Positions 12,198-58,577 of a stretch of DNA of 64,000 bases are shown here, in pieces (position 1 is the first letter of the stretch; each line of letters starts with the position of its first letter). This DNA comes from Neoroseomonas alkaliterrae (lineage in GTDB: Bacteria; Pseudomonadota; Alphaproteobacteria; Acetobacterales; Acetobacteraceae), in NCBI RefSeq assembly GCF_014199195.1, contig NZ_JACIJE010000001.1:372001-436000 (forward strand). Direction: 5' to 3'. The notes under the pieces are model-generated. The model was given only the letters and a program-made list of their open reading frames with translations, was not told where the DNA came from and did not search any database. A program made the translations under genes and the position numbers.

Positions 12198-12245
12198 GCG
12201 CCGTTCATCCACACGGGCCGTGCGCCGAAGCAAAACGGCGTGTTT

Positions 12246-13031
12246 TCAGATGGTTGATGGGCCCCGCTCCCGGTCGGAATGAGGAATGACAGGCCCGCTT
12301 TCCCCAGAGTTTTCCACAGCCTGGCCAGGCCCGCAGAGCCGGTCCGTCTCGGCCTCGATCGCCTCTTCGAGGGCCGCCATCAGCGCAGGGCGGGGCAGGC
12401 CCGGCGGCAGCGGCGGCAGCACCGCGACATGGATGGTCCCCGGCCGCTTGAGGAAGGCCCTGCGCCCCCAGAGGATGCCGCTGTCGGTGGCCACCGGCAC
12501 CACCGGCACGCGCGCCGCCGCGGCCAGCGCCGCAACGCCCGGCTGGTAGGGCCGCCGCTGGCCGGGCGCGGTGCGGGTGCCCTCGGGGAAGATCACCACC
12601 GGCCGGCCCTCGGCGAGCCTCGCCACCGCTTCGCGCACCATGCGCCGCAGCGCCGCCCCGCCGCCCGCGCGGTCCACCCCGACATGCCCGCAGCGCCGCG
12701 CGAACCAGCCCCAGACCGGCACCGCCAGCAGTTCCTTCTTCAACACGTAGACCGGTGCGGGCAGCAGCGCGAGCCAGACCACCGTGTCGAAGGCCGACTG
12801 GTGCTTGGCGGCGATGATGGCGCCGCCCGGCGGGATGCGCTCGAGCCCCGTCACCTCGACGCGGATGCGGCAGATCACCCGCAGCATCCCGATCACGAGC
12901 CGCGACCAGGCGCGCACATAGCCGATCGCCACCCATGTCGGGGCCAGCAGCAGCGGCAGCGCCGCCACCGCCGCGGCCGCCGAGCCGCCCAGGAACAGCA
13001 GATTGAACAGCGCCGAGCGCAGAATGGTCAT
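12246..13031 (-). CDS. plsC: 1-acyl-sn-glycerol-3-phosphate acyltransferase
   Basis: PlsC transfers an acyl chain to lysophosphatidic acid at the inner membrane in phospholipid synthesis. The 261-residue protein has an N-terminal membrane region, the H-x4-D catalytic motif (KHQSAFDTVVW), the FPEGTR motif and the VPVVPVATDSG block, all in family order. The start overlaps the end of ydcF by 4 bases, so it is the last gene of an ftsE-ftsX-ydcF-plsC operon. The C-terminal tail after residue about 245 is polar and atypical, possibly a lineage extension. Confidence 0.92.
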   Translation of the reverse strand: MTILRSALFNLLFLGGSAAAAVAALPLLLAPTWVAIGYVRAWSRLVIGMLRVICRIRVEVTGLERIPPGGAIIAAKHQSAFDTVVWLALLPAPVYVLKKELLAVPVWGWFARRCGHVGVDRAGGGAALRRMVREAVARLAEGRPVVIFPEGTRTAPGQRRPYQPGVAALAAAARVPVVPVATDSGILWGRRAFLKRPGTIHVAVLPPLPPGLPRPALMAALEEAIEAETDRLCGPGQAVENSGESGPVIPHSDRERGPSTI

Positions 13032-40178: not shown

Positions 40179-41237
40179 TCAGGCGCTGCGCAGGATGCGC
40201 ATCAGCGCCGTGACATGCTCGGGCGGGGTCTGGGGCACGATCCCGTGGCCGAGGTTGAACACGTAGGGCCGCCCGCGCATCGCCGCGAGGATGGAGCGCG
40301 TCTCCGCCTCCAGCGCCGCGCCGCCGGCCACCAGCGCCAGCGGATCGAGATTGCCCTGCAGCGCCATGCCTGCCGGCACCGCCTGCGCGGCCCAGCGCGG
40401 GTCCATCCCGGTGTCCATCGCGGTCGCGTCCACGCCTGCGCGTGCGGCGTAGTCGGCCAGCAGCGGGCCCGCGAGGCGCGGGAAGCCGATCAGCGGCACG
40501 CCGGGGCAGCGGCGCCGGAGCGCGCGCGTGATGGAAGCGGTGGGCTCGATCACCCAGCGCCGGAACTGCCCGGGGGAGAGCATGCCGGCCCAGGAATCGA
40601 AGATCATCAGCGCCTCGGCCCCGGCCTCGACCTGCGCGACCAGGTATTCGACCGTCGCTTCCTGCAGCGTGCGGATGAGGCGGCCGAACAGCGCCGGGTC
40701 GGCATAGGCGAGGCCGCGCGCCGCCGCGAACTCCTTCGAGCCGCGCCCTTCGAGCATGTAGCAGGCGACGGTGAAGCACCCGCCGGCGAAGCCGATCAGC
40801 GTGGTGCGCGGCGCCTCGGCCGCAAGCCCCGCGCGCACCCGCGCGACCGTCTCCATGATCGGCGCCGCGCGCGCCGCGACCACGGCGGGGTCGAGTGCCG
40901 CGATCGCCTCGGCATCGCGCAACGGCTCGAGCAGCGGCCCCTCGCCTTCCGCGAAGCGGAGCGGCTGGCCGAGCGCCCAGGGCACCATCAGGATGTCGGA
41001 GAACAGGATCGCCGCCTCCATCCCGTAGCGGCGGATCGGCTGCAGCGTGACCTCTGCGGCGAGTGCGGGCGTGATGCAGAGGGTGACGAAATCGCCCGCC
41101 TGGGCGCGCAGTTCCCGGTATTCGGGCAGGTAGCGTCCTGCCTGGCGCATCAGCCATGCGGGCGGCGGCCACACGGCCTCTCCCGAAAGGGCGCGCAGCA
41201 GCGGCTTGGCCGGCGCCGCGGGTCGTTCGCTGTCCAT
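40179..41237 (-). CDS. hemE: Uroporphyrinogen decarboxylase
   Basis: HemE removes four carboxyl groups from uroporphyrinogen III in haem synthesis. The 352-residue protein has the signature RQAGRYLPEYR, FSDILMVPWALGQ with the essential Asp, GFAGGCFTVACYMLEG, and GNLDPLALVAGG with NLGHGIVPQTPPEHV at the C-terminus. The ATG at 41237 gives the normal length. It is read away from the candidate replication origin, as hemE is in Caulobacter. Confidence 0.95.
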   Translation of the reverse strand: MDSERPAAPAKPLLRALSGEAVWPPPAWLMRQAGRYLPEYRELRAQAGDFVTLCITPALAAEVTLQPIRRYGMEAAILFSDILMVPWALGQPLRFAEGEGPLLEPLRDAEAIAALDPAVVAARAAPIMETVARVRAGLAAEAPRTTLIGFAGGCFTVACYMLEGRGSKEFAAARGLAYADPALFGRLIRTLQEATVEYLVAQVEAGAEALMIFDSWAGMLSPGQFRRWVIEPTASITRALRRRCPGVPLIGFPRLAGPLLADYAARAGVDATAMDTGMDPRWAAQAVPAGMALQGNLDPLALVAGGAALEAETRSILAAMRGRPYVFNLGHGIVPQTPPEHVTALMRILRSA

Positions 41238-41291
41238 GCACCAAACTACGCAGATAAAGGGGATTGAAGAAAGGCAGGGATGGTGATGGGT

Positions 41292-41338
41292 GGCTGTGGA
41301 TGACGGGGACGCAGCCCGTCCCGCAGCCATCCACAGCC
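41292..41338. repeat. 11-bp inverted repeat carrying two DnaA-box-like sites
   Basis: GGCTGTGGATG (41292-41302) and its exact complement CATCCACAGCC (41328-41338) are separated by 25 bases, which contain a smaller inverted pair, GACGGG and CCCGTC. Each outer arm includes a DnaA-box-like core. Because the region lies between divergent genes, a transcription terminator is unlikely, so paired protein binding is the better reading. Confidence 0.65.
41295..41303 (-). promoter_or_regulatory. DnaA-box-like site, one mismatch
   Basis: TGTGGATGA on the plus strand reads TCATCCACA on the minus strand, one base from the consensus TTATCCACA. It forms the left arm of an 11-bp inverted repeat. Confidence 0.6.
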
Positions 41339-41503
41339 CTGTCCACCGCATTCCCCGGCCGCGGCGCGAGGCAGGCTGCGGGCTCCGCGCGGATTTCCGC
41401 ATCCGGGGCACGGAGGCCGCCGGTCGCATCCACGGAGGCGCGCGGCCCCGGGCTTGTCCACGGCCTGCACGGAGGCCGGCGGCGAGGCGCGATTCCATCC
41501 ACG

Positions 41504-41512
41504 TCATCCACA
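41504..41512 (+). promoter_or_regulatory. DnaA-box-like site, one mismatch
   Basis: TCATCCACA differs from TTATCCACA by one base. Weaker copies CCATCCACG and GGATCCACG abut it on either side with about 9-10-base spacing, a tandem arrangement suited to cooperative DnaA binding. It ends 24 bases before the ppsR start codon. Confidence 0.6.
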
Positions 41513-41536
41513 AGGATCCACGCTATTCTCCCGCCG

Positions 41537-42436
41537 ATGCCCGCGCGACAGATCAACCTCCACCTCGTCTCCGACTCCACGGGGGAGACGCTGAACTCCA
41601 TCGCCCGCGCCACGCTCGCGCGCTTCGACGACCAGCATGTCGTCCATCACCGCTGGTCGCTGGTCCGCTCCCGCCTGCAGCTCGACCGCGTGCTGGAAGG
41701 CATCGAGCACGAGCCCGGCCCGGTGCTCTACACCGTGGCGGATTCCAGCCTGCGCCTGGCGCTCGAGGAGGCCTGCGGCCGGCTCGGCCTGCCCTGCCTC
41801 TCCCCGCTCGACCCGGTGATGGAGCTGCTGCAGGGCACGCTCGGCGCGCGCGCGAAGGAGAAGCGCGCCGCGCAGCATGTGATGGACGCCGACTATTTCC
41901 GCCGTATCGACGCGATGCACTATGTGCTCTCGCACGATGACGGGCAGGGCACCGCGGGCATCCGCAATGCCGATGTCGTGCTGGTCGGCGTCTCGCGCAG
42001 CAGCAAGACGCCGACCTGCTTCTACCTAGCGAACCGGGGCATCAAGGCGGCCAATGTGCCGATCGTGCCGGGCGCGCCGCTGCCCGCCGCGCTGGAGGAA
42101 CCGCCCTGCCCGGTGGTGGGGCTGCATATCGAGGTGAATGCGCTGATCGAGATCCGCCGCCACCGCCTGCGCATCATCGGCGCCGGCGGTGTGCGGCAGG
42201 ACGCGACGGACTACATCGACCCCGAGGCGGTGAAGGCGGAGATCATCGCCGCGCGGCGGCTCTGCACATCGCGCGGCTGGCCGGTGATCGACGTGACTCG
42301 CCGCAGCATCGAGGAGACGGCGGCGACCGTGCTGCAGCTCATGGAGGCCTGGCACGCGCGCCGCAAGGACGGCGCGGTGGCGACCGCCCCGGAGGACCCA
42401 GCCGCCGCGGTGCTCGGCCGGCCGGAGGGCGCGTGA
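41537..42436 (+). CDS. ppsR: PpsR-type kinase/pyrophosphorylase (DUF299)
   Basis: DUF299 proteins are bifunctional regulators that phosphorylate and dephosphorylate pyruvate phosphate dikinase or PEP synthase with ADP/Pi. The 299-residue protein has [20 protein letters not shown] and the P-loop-like GVSRSSKTP (151-159). Which of the two target enzymes it controls is not visible. The ATG at 41537 gives the conserved N-terminus; an upstream frame would run through the candidate origin. Its stop overlaps maf by 4 bases. Confidence 0.9.
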
Positions 42437-43044
42437 TCCAGGCCGCGACGCCGCGGCTGGTGCTGGCCTCGGCCTCCGCGACGCGCCGCGCCCTGCTCGC
42501 ATCCGCCGGCCTGCGCTTCGAGGCGCAGGCCGCGGCGGTGGACGAGGCGGCGATCAAGGAAGCGGCCCAGGCGGAGGGCATCGTACCCGCCGATGCCGCC
42601 ATCATGCTCGCCGAGGCCAAGGCGGAGCGCATCGCGCGGCGCGACCCGGATGCGCTGGTGATCGGCTGCGACCAGCTCCTGGTCTGCGAGGGGCGCTGGT
42701 TCGACAAGCCGGCCGACCTCGCGGCGGCGCGCGCGCAACTCCTCGCGCTGCGCGGGCGGCGGCACGAGCTGGTCACGGCGGTGGTCTGCCATCGCCAGGG
42801 CGGGCGGATCTGGCAGCATGTGGCGGTGCCGCGCCTCGTGATGCGCGATTTCTCAGACGCGTTCCTCGACGCCTACCTGGCCGCCGAGGGCGAACGCGTG
42901 ACCGCCTCGGTCGGCGCCTACCGGCTGGAGGGGCCTGGCGTGCAGCTCTTCGCCTCGGTGCAGGGGGAGCATGCGGCGATCCTGGGCCTGCCGCTGCTGC
43001 CGCTGCTCGGCTTCCTGCGCCAGCACGGGGTGCTGGGGGGCTGA
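42433..43044 (+). CDS. maf: Maf-family nucleoside triphosphate pyrophosphatase
   Basis: Maf proteins hydrolyse non-canonical or house-keeping nucleoside triphosphates and have been tied to division arrest. The 203-residue protein has [19 protein letters not shown] near the start, the [10 protein letters not shown] catalytic-base region, and [20 protein letters not shown] near the C-terminus. It is the second gene of a ppsR-maf unit directly downstream of the candidate origin. Confidence 0.92.
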
Positions 43045-48301: not shown

Positions 48302-48317
48302 TGTTCCACGTGAAACA
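48302..48317. other. parS-like centromere site (copy 1)
   Basis: TGTTCCACGTGAAACA differs at one base from the perfect palindrome TGTTTCACGTGAAACA bound by chromosomal ParB. It begins one base after the end of the ferredoxin-domain gene, 15 bases ahead of mnmE, about 4.7 kb before parB and about 7 kb from the candidate origin. Confidence 0.85.
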
Positions 48318-49745: not shown

Positions 49746-51614
49746 ATGACCGGAAGCTTCGATGTGATCGTGATCGGCGGCGGCCATGCCGGCTGCGAGG
49801 CGGCGGCCGCGGCGGCGCGCTGCGGCGCGCGCACGCTGCTGCTGACCCAGCGGATCGAGACGATCGGCGAGATGTCCTGCAACCCGGCGATCGGCGGCGT
49901 CGGCAAGGGCCATCTGGTGCGCGAGGTGGATGCGCTGGACGGCATCATGGCCCGCGCGGCGGATGCCGCGGCGATCCATGTGAAGGTGCTCAACCGCTCG
50001 AAGGGGCCGGCGGTGCGGGGGCCGCGGGCGCAGGCCGATCGCCGCCTCTACCGTGCCGCGGTGCAGGGCCTGTTGCGGGCGCAGCCGGGGCTCACGATCC
50101 TTGCCGGGACGGCCGAGGACATCGAGATCGGCCCGGACGGCGCCGTGGCTGCGGTGCGGACCGGGGATGGGCGGCGCCTCGCCTGCGGCGCGGCAGTCGT
50201 CACGACCGGCACCTTCCTGCGCGGGGAGATCCATGTCGGGCGCCGCAGGATTCCTGCCGGGCGGGTGGGCGACGAGCCCGCCATCGGCCTCGCCCAGGCC
50301 TTCGAGCGCCTGGGCCTTCCGCTCGCGCGGCTGAAGACCGGCACGCCGCCGCGCCTTGACGGGCGGACCATCGACTGGGATGCCGTCGAGCACCAGCCCG
50401 GCGACGACCCGCCGGAGCCCTTGTCCTGGCTCACGGACCGCATCGCCAACCGCCAGGTGGTCTGCGGGATCACCGCGACCACGCCGGCGACCCATGCCCT
50501 GATCCGGGAGAATCTCTCGGAGAGCGCCGTCTATGGCGGGCGCATCCAGGGTGCTGGGCCACGCTACTGCCCCTCGATCGAGGACAAGGTGGTGCGTTTC
50601 GCCGAGCGGGAACGCCACCAGGTGTTCCTCGAACCCGAGGGCCTCGACGACGACACGGTCTATCCGAACGGCGTCTCCACCAGCCTGCCGGAGGCGGTCC
50701 AGGCGGCGATGATCGCCTCGATCCCGGGCCTCGAGCGCGCGCGCATCCTCCGCCCCGGCTACGCGATCGAATACGACCATGTGGACCCGCGGGCGCTCGG
50801 CCCCTCGCTCGAGGTCCGGTCCGTGCCGCGGCTGTTCCTCGCCGGGCAGATCAACGGGACGACCGGATACGAGGAGGCCGCGGCCCAGGGCCTCATGGCG
50901 GGGCTGAATGCGGCGCAGCGCGCCTCGGGCGGGCACCCCGACCGGGTGCTGACGCGGGGCGAGGCCTATATCGGCGTCCTGGTGGACGATCTGGTGCTGC
51001 AGGGCGTCACCGAGCCCTACCGGATGCTGACCGCGCGGGCCGAGCACCGGCTTCTGCTGCGCGCCGACAATGCCGGCCTGCGGCTGACGGAGCGCGGCAT
51101 GGCCTGGGGCTGCGTCGGTGCGGAGCGCGCGGCGCGGCACCGGACCTTCGCCTCCGCGCTGGCCGACGCCCTGGCCCGGGCGCGCGCCGAGGGCGCGACG
51201 CCGGCGGCGCTCGCGGCCTCGGGCATTGCGGTGAACCAGGACGGGCGGCGGCGAAGCCTGCTCGAGGTTCTCGCGCTTCCTGGCGTCAGGGCCGCCCAGG
51301 TGGATGCGGCCTTCCCCTGGCTGCGCGACCTCTCGCCCGGGCTGCGGACCCAGCTCGAGGCCGAGGCGCTCTACGCGCCCTATCTGCGGCGCCAGGAGGC
51401 GGAGATGCGCCTGCTCGAGCGGGAGGAGCGGACGCGCATTCCCGACGGGATGGACTTCTCGGGTGTGCCGGGGCTCTCCACGGAGATGCGCCAGCGCCTC
51501 GCCGCCGCCCGTCCGGCGACGCTCGGCGCAGCGGGGCGGCTGCCGGGTGTGACGCCCGCGGCCGTTGCGGCCCTGGCCGTGGCGCTCCGGCGGGCGGGCG
51601 CGTGTTCCACGTGA
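49746..51614 (+). CDS. mnmG: tRNA uridine-5-carboxymethylaminomethyl modification FAD enzyme MnmG (GidA)
   Basis: MnmG is the FAD-dependent partner of MnmE. From the ATG at 49746 it is 622 residues, the usual size, with the dinucleotide motif [10 protein letters not shown] (11-20), [48 protein letters not shown], the [14 protein letters not shown] block and [15 protein letters not shown]. An ATG nine bases earlier is also possible. Its last codons overlap rsmG by 13 bases, and this overlap contains a parS-like site. Confidence 0.95.
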
Positions 51615-52219
51615 AACAGCCCATCCCGGCGCTGCCTCCCGACCCCGCGCGGGAGGCGCGGCTCGCAGCCTATCGGGACCTGCTGCTGCGCTGGAACGCG
51701 ACGATCAACCTTGTCGCCGCGCGAACCGTCGCCGAGCTCGAACGCCGCCACATCGCCGATTGCCTGCAACTGGTGCCCCTGGTCCCGGGCGCCGGGGCTA
51801 TTGCCGATCTCGGGTCCGGCGCGGGCCTGCCTGGCCTCGTCATCGCCGCCGCGCTCCCCGACCGGGCGGTGCATTTGGTGGAATCGGACCGCCGCAAGGC
51901 GGCCTTCCTCGTCGAGGCGGCGGCGACGCTCGGGCTCCGCCAGGTCACGGTGCATCCGCAGCGGATCGAGCGGGCGGCGCTGCCCCCCTGCGCGGCCATC
52001 ACGGCCCGGGCGCTGGCGCCGCTCGATCGCCTGCTCGCCTATGCCGCGCCGCATCTCGCGCCGGGGGGCGTCTGCCTGCTGCTCAAGGGCCGCGGCGCCG
52101 AGGAGGAGTTGACGATCGCCGCCGCACACTGGCACTTCACGGCGGAGCGGTTCACGAGCCGCACGGACACCGAGGCCACCATCCTTCGCCTGAGCGAGAT
52201 CCGCCGTGCCGGCCCATGA
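51602..52219 (+). CDS. rsmG: 16S rRNA (guanine-N7) methyltransferase RsmG (GidB)
   Basis: RsmG methylates N7 of G527 in 16S rRNA using AdoMet. The 205-residue protein has [20 protein letters not shown], the AdoMet-binding motif [29 protein letters not shown] and [15 protein letters not shown]. The GTG at 51602 places the usual N-terminus and lies one base before a parS-like site. Its end overlaps parA by 14 bases. Loss of this gene in other bacteria gives low-level streptomycin resistance. Confidence 0.94.
51603..51618. other. parS-like centromere site (copy 2), inside the mnmG/rsmG overlap
   Basis: TGTTCCACGTGAAACA is identical to copy 1. It covers the mnmG stop codon and codons 1-6 of rsmG, where it encodes the start of MFHVKQ. 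It is about 600 bases before parA and 1.4 kb before parB. Confidence 0.88.
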
Positions 52220-53018
52220 GCGCCCGTCCCTCCGCATCATCGCCCTGGCCAACCAGAAGGGCGGCGTCGGCAAGACCACGACCGCGATCAACCTCGGCAC
52301 CGCGCTGGCGGCGAAGCGCAAGGTGCTGCTTATCGACCTGGATCCGCAGGGCAATGCCTCGACCGGCCTCGGTCTGTCGCGCCAGGACCGCGGGGCGGGC
52401 TCCTATGCGCTGCTGACGGGCGAGAAGCCGCTCGCCGAACTTCTGCGGCCGACCCGCATCCCGGGCCTGACGCTGCTGCCCGCCGACCCGGACCTCGCCG
52501 GCGCCGAGATCGAGCTCGTCGGCCTCGAGAACCGCGAACGCCGCCTGCGCGACGCGCTCGATGCGCAATCGGCGGCGCTGGCCGGGACGGATGTCATCCT
52601 GATCGACTGCCCGCCCTCGCTCGGGCTGCTCACGCTCAACGCGCTGGTCGCGTCGCATTCGGTGCTGGTGCCGCTGCAGACCGAGTTCTTCGCCCTCGAG
52701 GGCGTCTCCCAGATCACGCGCACGGTGGACAGGGTGAAGCGCGCCCTCAACCCCACGCTCGAACTCGAAGGCATCGTGCTGACGATGTTCGACAAGCGCA
52801 ACAACCTCTCCGAACTCGTCGCTGCCGATGTGCGGGCCTTCTTCGGCGACAAGGTCTTCACCACCGTCATCCCGCGCAATGTCCGCATCAGCGAGGCGCC
52901 GTCGCATGGCCTGCCGGTCATCCTCTACGACCATCGCTCGGCCGGCGCGCAGGCCTATGTGGAACTCGCGGCCGAGGTGCTGAAGCGCGAACGCAAGGCG
53001 AGGAAATCGGCCGCATGA
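52206..53018 (+). CDS. parA: Chromosome partitioning ATPase ParA
   Basis: ParA is a deviant-Walker ATPase that moves ParB-parS complexes during chromosome segregation. The 270-residue protein has KGGVGKTTTAINLG (from 18) with the signature first Lys, LLIDLDPQGNASTGLG, ILIDCPPSLGLLTLNAL and VPLQTEFFALEG. A GTG start at 52206 is used because it precedes the conserved block by the usual short leader. The stop overlaps parB by 4 bases. Confidence 0.95.
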   Translation: MPAHERPSLRIIALANQKGGVGKTTTAINLGTALAAKRKVLLIDLDPQGNASTGLGLSRQDRGAGSYALLTGEKPLAELLRPTRIPGLTLLPADPDLAGAEIELVGLENRERRLRDALDAQSAALAGTDVILIDCPPSLGLLTLNALVASHSVLVPLQTEFFALEGVSQITRTVDRVKRALNPTLELEGIVLTMFDKRNNLSELVAADVRAFFGDKVFTTVIPRNVRISEAPSHGLPVILYDHRSAGAQAYVELAAEVLKRERKARKSAA

Positions 53019-53872
53019 AGAAGCCCGCGCGCCTTGGCATGGGGCTCTCCGCCCTGATGGGCGACAGCGCCGCGCCCGCCCCGACGCCCTCCGGCGCCCC
53101 GCGCAGCCTGCCCATCGAGGCGCTGGAGCCGAGCCCCTTCCAGGCGCGCAGCGCGCCGGACCCGGCCGCGCTCGCCGAGCTCGCGGCCTCGATCCAGGAA
53201 CACGGCATCCTGCAGCCCATCCTGGTGCGCCCCAAGCCCGGCGCGGCGGGGAGGTTCCAGATCCTCGGCGGCGAGCGCCGCTGGCGCGCGGCCCAGCAGG
53301 CGAGGCTGCACGAGGTGCCGGTCGTCATCCGCGACCTCGACGACCGCGCCGCCATGGCCGCCGGCCTGGTCGAGAACCTGCAGCGCGAGGACCTCAACGC
53401 GCTCGAGGAGGCCGAAGGCTATGCGCGCCTGATCAGCGAGTTCGGGCTCAAGCAGGACAGCCTCGGCCAGGTCGTCGGCAAGTCGCGCAGCCATGTCGCG
53501 AACACGCTGCGCCTGTTGAACCTGCCGCCGCGCGTGCGGGAGATGCTGCGCGGCGGCGCGCTCTCCGCCGGCCATGCCCGGGCGCTGCTCGGCGCGCAGG
53601 ATCCGGAGCGGCTGGCCGGGCTGGTCGTCGTGCGCGGGCTTTCGGTCCGCCAGACCGAGGCGCTGGCCGCGGCCGCCCCGCGCGACCCCGCCGCGCGCCG
53701 CGGCGCGAAGCGCGACGCCGACACCGCCGCGCTCGAGCGGCGGCTGACCGAACGGCTCGGGCTGAAGGTGGCCATCAAGGCGAGCGGCAAGGGCGGGCAG
53801 GTGACGATCACCTATCGCGACCTCGACCAGCTCGACGGCGTGCTGCGGCTGCTCGACCCGGACATGGCATAG
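53015..53872 (+). CDS. parB: Chromosome partitioning protein ParB
   Basis: ParB binds parS and spreads as a CTP-dependent clamp. The 285-residue protein opens with RLGMGLSALMGD, a ParA-stimulating leader, followed by SPFQARSAPDPAALAELAAS, the CTP-binding GERRWRAAQ (86-94) and ENLQREDLNALEEAEGY. The helix-turn-helix reads GQVVGKSRSHVANTLRLLNL and the rest is a C-terminal dimer domain. Both parS-like sites in the window lie upstream within 5 kb. Confidence 0.95.
   Translation: MKKPARLGMGLSALMGDSAAPAPTPSGAPRSLPIEALEPSPFQARSAPDPAALAELAASIQEHGILQPILVRPKPGAAGRFQILGGERRWRAAQQARLHEVPVVIRDLDDRAAMAAGLVENLQREDLNALEEAEGYARLISEFGLKQDSLGQVVGKSRSHVANTLRLLNLPPRVREMLRGGALSAGHARALLGAQDPERLAGLVVVRGLSVRQTEALAAAAPRDPAARRGAKRDADTAALERRLTERLGLKVAIKASGKGGQVTITYRDLDQLDGVLRLLDPDMA

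Positions 53873-55970: not shown

Positions 55971-58577
<2,607 letters not shown>

Follow-up and report, generated by a model that had tools for sequence, protein, structure and literature searches.

The 299-base region between hemE and ppsR in the 64,000 nucleotides of Neoroseomonas alkaliterrae DNA analysed here (hereafter the window) is, with a probability that we put at about 0.93, the chromosomal replication origin (oriC), of the alphaproteobacterial kind flanked by hemE and a COG1806 gene. Our results show a set of DnaA-box-like sites that exceeds chance expectation, is conserved among relatives and is linked to parS. This kind of oriC is already described in print, and the assignment is well supported but ordinary; its value lies in giving a precise, testable origin to a Roseomonas-like genome that is very GC-rich and has too weak a skew to reveal one.

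The region, its flanking genes and its DnaA boxes

The original prediction had placed a non-coding stretch of 299 bases at 41238-41536 between hemE and ppsR, and these coordinates are exact, with the ATG codons of the two genes at 41237 (minus strand) and 41537 (plus strand). It had also put mnmEG-rsmG-parAB within 12.5 kb, and this order of genes was found: mnmE, mnmG, rsmG, a ParA-like ATPase gene and parB lie downstream in that order and end at 53872, 12.3 kb from the region. In the NCBIfam comparison mnmE, mnmG, rsmG and parB each had a match above cut-off and ParA alone stayed below, while ppsR scored under the cut-off of the narrower model NF049928. The region, which occupies positions 413,238-413,536 of its contig (C1, 692,816 bases), thus sits between divergent hemE and COG1806 (ppsR) genes and close to both parAB and parS. 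The features are as follows, in window coordinates, with mismatches of the DnaA sites counted against TTATCCACA.

40179..41237, minus strand: hemE, uroporphyrinogen decarboxylase, left flank (TIGR01464, 375 bits, above cut-off; ATG at 41237)
41238..41536: candidate origin region, 299 bases, non-coding, between hemE and ppsR
41238..41290: A/T-richer segment beside hemE, from GC composition; probable unwinding element
41295..41303, minus strand: DnaA box, one mismatch, TCATCCACA, conserved in the 29-region alignment
41304..41313, plus strand: conserved block of the 29-region alignment, GGGGACGCA here, adjoining the left box
41327..41335, plus strand: DnaA-box-like, two mismatches, conserved in many alignment rows
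41339..41347, plus strand: DnaA-box-like, three mismatches
41426..41434, plus strand: DnaA-box-like, three mismatches
41454..41462, plus strand: DnaA-box-like, two mismatches
41491..41495: the single GANTC site of the region (CcrM-type motif)
41495..41503, plus strand: DnaA-box-like, three mismatches, first of the triple
41504..41512, plus strand: DnaA box, one mismatch, second of the triple; several relatives have exact TTATCCACA at the corresponding alignment position
41514..41522, plus strand: DnaA-box-like, three mismatches, third of the triple
41537..42436, plus strand: ppsR (COG1806/DUF299 kinase-pyrophosphorylase), right flank (NF003742, 298.6 bits, above cut-off; ATG at 41537)
48302..48317: parS-like site, one mismatch, 6.8 kb from the region
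51603..51618: parS-like site, one mismatch, 10.1 kb from the region
52206..53018, plus strand: ParA-like ATPase (NF041546, 97.7 bits, below its cut-off of 180)
53015..53872, plus strand: parB (TIGR00180, 176 bits, above cut-off)

The eight DnaA-box-like sites that had been claimed correspond to eight TCCAC cores, six of them ATCCACR, and the two sites said to differ from TTATCCACA at one position are those at 41295 (minus strand) and 41504 (plus strand); the exact sequence is absent from 41238-41536. Allowing up to one, two and three mismatches gives 2, 4 and 10 sites, respectively. Dinucleotide shuffling of the region, repeated 5,000 times, attained the one-mismatch count twice and the two-mismatch, three-mismatch and core counts never. 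For ATCCACR the region ranks first among the 300-base windows of the contig (6, the runner-up having 2); it also leads at up to two mismatches (4 against 3) and, narrowly, at up to three (10 against 9). Three ATCCACR cores with gaps of at most 30 bases occur a single time in the 4.24-Mb draft genome of 50 contigs, and a reversed control of this pattern had no match in the whole draft. Both the shuffles and the triple-site search therefore place the cluster beyond chance.

Other concentrations of such sites were seen on the same contig. Two one-mismatch boxes lie within 115 bases at 12205-12318 of the window (C1:384.0 kb), the contig's only other one-mismatch pair inside a 300-base window and a tie with the candidate region. 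Four looser ATCCAC cores fall within 300 bases at about 56930-57230 (C1:428.9 kb), second on the contig to the candidate, and a weaker TCCACR cluster (4 in 300 bases) is found at about 24.2-24.6 kb of the contig (G000:C1), where C1:24.3 kb ties the candidate region for TCCACA with 3 each.

An A/T-richer segment in very GC-rich DNA had likewise been described, and it is present: the first 40 bases beside hemE are 45-50% GC and the next 20 are 60%, while the region as a whole has 70% GC and the window 74%, so that the A/T content of the region exceeds that of its surroundings. DnaA binding, the place of opening and the firing of the origin at this region are our inference from these features. 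DnaA, whose gene lies 280 kb away, would first bind the better boxes at the two ends, 41295 and 41504, and then fill the weaker sites between them. The resulting complex may open the 40-60 A/T-richer bases that lie between hemE and the inverted left box, an end of the region suggested by base composition together with box orientation. The helicase would be loaded at the opened segment for bidirectional replication, and ParB on the two nearby parS sites would segregate the duplicated origins.

The CtrA protein has the consensus TTAA-N7-TTAA and IHF the consensus WATCAAN4TTR. We do not class the region as a CtrA-controlled origin of the Caulobacter Cori type, since it contains no TTAA and hence no consensus CtrA site; among the 80 family regions described below the CtrA consensus is present in one, which is not that of the window, and matches to the IHF consensus were found in none of the 80, the window's included (consensus sites only). 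Caulobacter-like control by CtrA is therefore not supported. A scan of 41100-41700 gave no consensus sigma-70 promoter or terminator, and the window from 40500 to 42500 had no Rfam match at gathering scores. Just before the ppsR start codon, at 41519-41536, a conserved CACGCTATTCTCCC resembles a -10 element placed for a leaderless transcript.

Conservation among relatives and across the class

A search with ppsR gave 417 relatives in the genome collection, of which the best 80 were used; most of these are titled Roseomonas, Neoroseomonas, Falsiroseomonas, Belnapia and kin, and some only as Rhodospirillales or Alphaproteobacteria bins. In a separate count the search found no ppsR in 50 of 248 family genomes. 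The divergent layout of hemE, region and ppsR is present in 79 of the 80 best-matching loci, the exception (L050) being cut by a contig end before hemE. With that locus left out, the 79 relatives and the window make up 80 family regions, whose lengths are approximate, as their ends were extrapolated from tblastn matches to the hemE and ppsR starts of the window; they run from 277 to 471 bases, plus one of 862, with 58 of the 80 (window included) at 290-320.

Over these 80 regions ATCCACR was observed 160 times against 8.15 expected from each locus's own density. At least two TCCACR were present in 78 of the 80, and, once the set was thinned to 53 clusters at 75% identity, in 51 of these; 31 of the 80 regions contain exact TTATCCACA. 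Four family regions had no ATCCACR (L056, L081, L107 and L111), and L107 had no TCCACR either. An alignment of 29 of the 80 regions, picked by hand, shows three conserved parts, namely the A/T-richer stretch by hemE, the left inverted box with the GGGGACGCA block, and the right-hand box shortly before ppsR, the middle being variable among the aligned relatives. In the first 60 bases mean GC over the 80 regions is 47-57%. The GGGGACGCA block is 75-92% conserved per column, bar one variable position, in 76 anchored rows; these counts leave out the four regions without a left-box anchor, and several further rows are anchored on a neighbouring TGTGG rather than on the conserved box.

The published DnaA-trio rule asks for a box with up to two mismatches, a spacer of 0-16 bases and at least three trios with a middle A (PMC8287927). 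No instance of the basal unwinding system was found by this rule in the window's region, which resembles that system in having a box that points into the A/T-richer flank and differs from it in having fewer than three trios within 16 bases. By the same rule 24 of the 80 family regions were positive against 8 of 80 in a wrong-side control, and 11 of 24 class regions against 10 of 24. A shortened trio element is nevertheless possible, because a TAG lies within 12 bases on the A/T-richer side of the left box in 44 of the 65 family regions with TGTGGA[TC], where about 6% would be expected from mean density; the rows of this tally are related, hence not independent.

Across the class, a ppsR match was obtained in 37 of the 57 genomes searched and none was found in the other 20. 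Loci could be drawn from 25 of the 37, and 24 of these have the divergent hemE-ppsR pair, no hemE being found in the remaining one (L249); the 24 regions are approximately 297-869 bases long. ATCCACR occurs at least once in 17 of the 24 and is lacking in 7, which, beside a layout kept in 24 of 25 loci, indicates a widespread arrangement in the class with a drifting box sequence.

Placement by parS, dnaA and GC skew

That the origin stays with hemE is supported most strongly by parS, which lies near hemE while dnaA can be distant. In the draft genome of the window only two parS matches were found at up to two mismatches, those at 48302 and 51603, and the only dnaA match is 280 kb from the candidate region on the same contig. 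Among ten relatives examined, nine had parS, the nearest site being 8-76 kb from hemE or ppsR and in all nine closer to these genes than to dnaA; G038 had no parS match. The nearest parS is 13 kb from ppsR in G001 and 25 kb in G171, with the best dnaA match 1.7 and 0.9 Mb away, respectively; in G206 parS is 76 kb from ppsR, and dnaA lies 0.14 Mb from ppsR in the opposite direction, which puts it 0.22 Mb from parS. G080 has three parS sites 8-12 kb from ppsR and two more at 36 and 248 kb, with dnaA 0.18 Mb from ppsR. Five single-contig family genomes lacking a ppsR match (G012, G022, G025, G039 and G100) have their nearest parS 8-76 kb from hemE (76 kb in G012; farther-off sites in G025 are at 76 and 118 kb). 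In these five genomes parS and dnaA are about 0.8-1.3 Mb apart, a distance that assumes circular contigs of rounded lengths, and box density within the 4-kb hemE locus peaks in a 400-base window immediately upstream of hemE.

These positions bear on the possibility that the sites form a DnaA-responsive promoter or a DnaA-titrating site for hemE and ppsR, with replication starting elsewhere, for example near dnaA. By layout the region is indeed a divergent promoter region, the strand-corrected skew of the contig (see below) breaks nearer dnaA, and two Acetobacter genome papers predict oriC near dnaA in silico (PMC3751514, PMC13209655). However, parS tracks hemE and ppsR in nine of the nine relatives that have it, with one further match in G080, that at 248 kb, nearer dnaA; no other 300-base window of the dnaA-bearing contig exceeds two ATCCACR; and the equivalent place in Caulobacter is the mapped origin (PMC1914354). 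The finding that parS keeps near hemE while dnaA wanders in the relatives examined argues against an untested dnaA-adjacent placement in this family, for which the Acetobacter predictions look doubtful given parS, although the five genomes may not be Acetobacter. We regard a promoter or titration role with replication starting elsewhere as quite improbable. It is reported that in Rhodospirillales dnaA is not conserved near ori, and that almost all genomes have parAB near ori, some exceptions being found in Rhodospirillales too (PMC8116508); hemE is among the indicator genes of Ori-Finder (PMC3794950).

Cumulative GC skew had been proposed as a check on the placement, with a minimum expected at the candidate and a minimum by dnaA taken as counting against it, and on the weak skew of this contig the outcome was divided. 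The raw cumulative minimum falls at C1:413,814, 0.3 kb from the region and not by dnaA, and a detrended trough of such depth arose in 1 of 2,000 block permutations; the trough is broad, with minima within about 4% of its depth at C1:446, 500 and 399 kb. Strand-corrected third-position skew, on the other hand, shows a gradual change that is best broken at about 116 kb, closer to dnaA; of the ppsR place and dnaA, the former fits slightly better (residuals of 1294.8 and 1308.0, against 1269.9 for the best position). A two-segment change-point of the raw skew at C1:631 kb was not adopted as the origin, and it counts against a sharp switch at the candidate. Resolution on the contig is no better than tens of kilobases.

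Skew in four relatives with large contigs was read from 20 sampled stretches of 20 kb each (40 for G206). With raw skew, the ppsR place is equalled or surpassed by 20-32% of positions. With corrected skew, which explains at most about 2% of the variance in these relatives, the ppsR place is best in G001 and in the top 7% in G206; the corrected skew is uninformative in G038, where it favours ppsR over dnaA, and in G171, where dnaA fits slightly better than ppsR. We therefore rejected skew as the decider of the origin's place, as too noisy on the contig and in the four relatives; being weak and noisy, it is compatible with an origin between hemE and ppsR and does not carry that reading.

An origin in some other intergenic region within tens of kilobases, with the hemE/ppsR cluster as an accessory DnaA site, would agree with the coarse skew resolution and with a nearest parS 76 kb off in G206 and G012, but we give it a very slim chance, as the other 300-base windows of the contig have two ATCCACR at most (C1:428.9 kb has four looser ATCCAC) and the cluster with its A/T-richer flank is conserved exactly at hemE/ppsR. 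The original prediction had drawn origin function from the sites and the layout, together with the known hemE-linked origin of Caulobacter and the common oriC-parAB linkage, and the comparative tests support the hemE/ppsR region in that role, from which we infer the firing itself.

GANTC sites in the family and comparison with known origins

GANTC, the CcrM motif, occurs 362 times over the 80 family regions; locus density would predict 28.8, and dinucleotide shuffles gave 119. Of the 80 regions, 25 exceed all of their own 100 shuffles. Among the 69 loci of at least 10 kb (shorter ones were dropped) the region is the strictly densest GANTC window in 51. Seven other motifs of the same make-up reached a top ratio of 3.3, compared with 12.7 for GANTC. 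Ten of the 80 regions hold 9-12 sites, including four titled Belnapia as well as those titled Roseomonas mucosa (L103), Roseomonas pecuniae and Paracraurococcus ruber; two sites were counted in L091, a bin that likewise bears the title R. mucosa, and none in three of the regions. GANTC-dense hemE-ppsR regions are spread among L034-L113 (for example L103, L082, L092 and L111) and reach 12 sites within 300 bases. Few sites are present in the lineage to which the window belongs, in contrast with the clusters of up to 12 in sister genera, and a GANTC-rich origin was rejected as a property of the window itself, which has one site in the region and denser GANTC windows elsewhere on the contig.

The genome encodes a protein with a RAMA domain, which we take to be the C-terminal domain of CcrM and which, among 14 control genomes, was found in Caulobacter alone. 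In E. coli, Dam and SeqA sequester the hemimethylated origin, and by this model the hemE-linked origins of the family could have a CcrM-based brake, acting once per cycle in place of CtrA sites, in which GANTC left hemimethylated after firing would block DnaA or recruit a sequestering protein. We consider such a brake unlikely. The Caulobacter origin also has GANTC sites, and the reported effect of ccrM loss there was to leave initiation control unchanged (PMC3973325), which lowers the odds; in Agrobacterium the level of CcrM had no clear effect on ori1 (PMC11514494). Among the papers listed by literature searches no title concerned GANTC at origins of the Roseomonas-like family, and the GANTC-rich versions in sister genera are the one fresh lead. 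If these clusters do time replication, they would represent a new control mode for alphaproteobacterial origins.

One of the closest described counterparts of the window's region is found in Caulobacter crescentus, whose origin was placed by independent methods between hemE and COG1806/DUF299 (PMC1914354). The original prediction had pointed to hemE as the neighbour shared with Caulobacter, and this holds for the ppsR flank (COG1806/DUF299) as well (PMC1914354). Like the window's region, Cori combines hemE and COG1806 flanks with DnaA boxes and an A/T-richer segment, and it is of similar size (404 bp against 299 bases); it differs in carrying five CtrA sites and one IHF site, to neither of which the window's region has a consensus match (PMC1914354). 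The same flanks, hemE and COG1806, border the Rickettsia origin, and in Rickettsia prowazekii the predicted origin shares them at 82.55% AT, compared with 70% GC here, whereas Wolbachia, Ehrlichia and Anaplasma keep hemE with a different second flank; the hemE/COG1806 pair has been proposed as ancestral (PMC1914354). Hyphomonas neptunium offers a parallel, as skew and dnaA gave no clear origin answer there either, and a marker-frequency peak was found close to hemE, with parAB about 7 kb from hemE and two parS sites upstream of parAB (PMC6650430).
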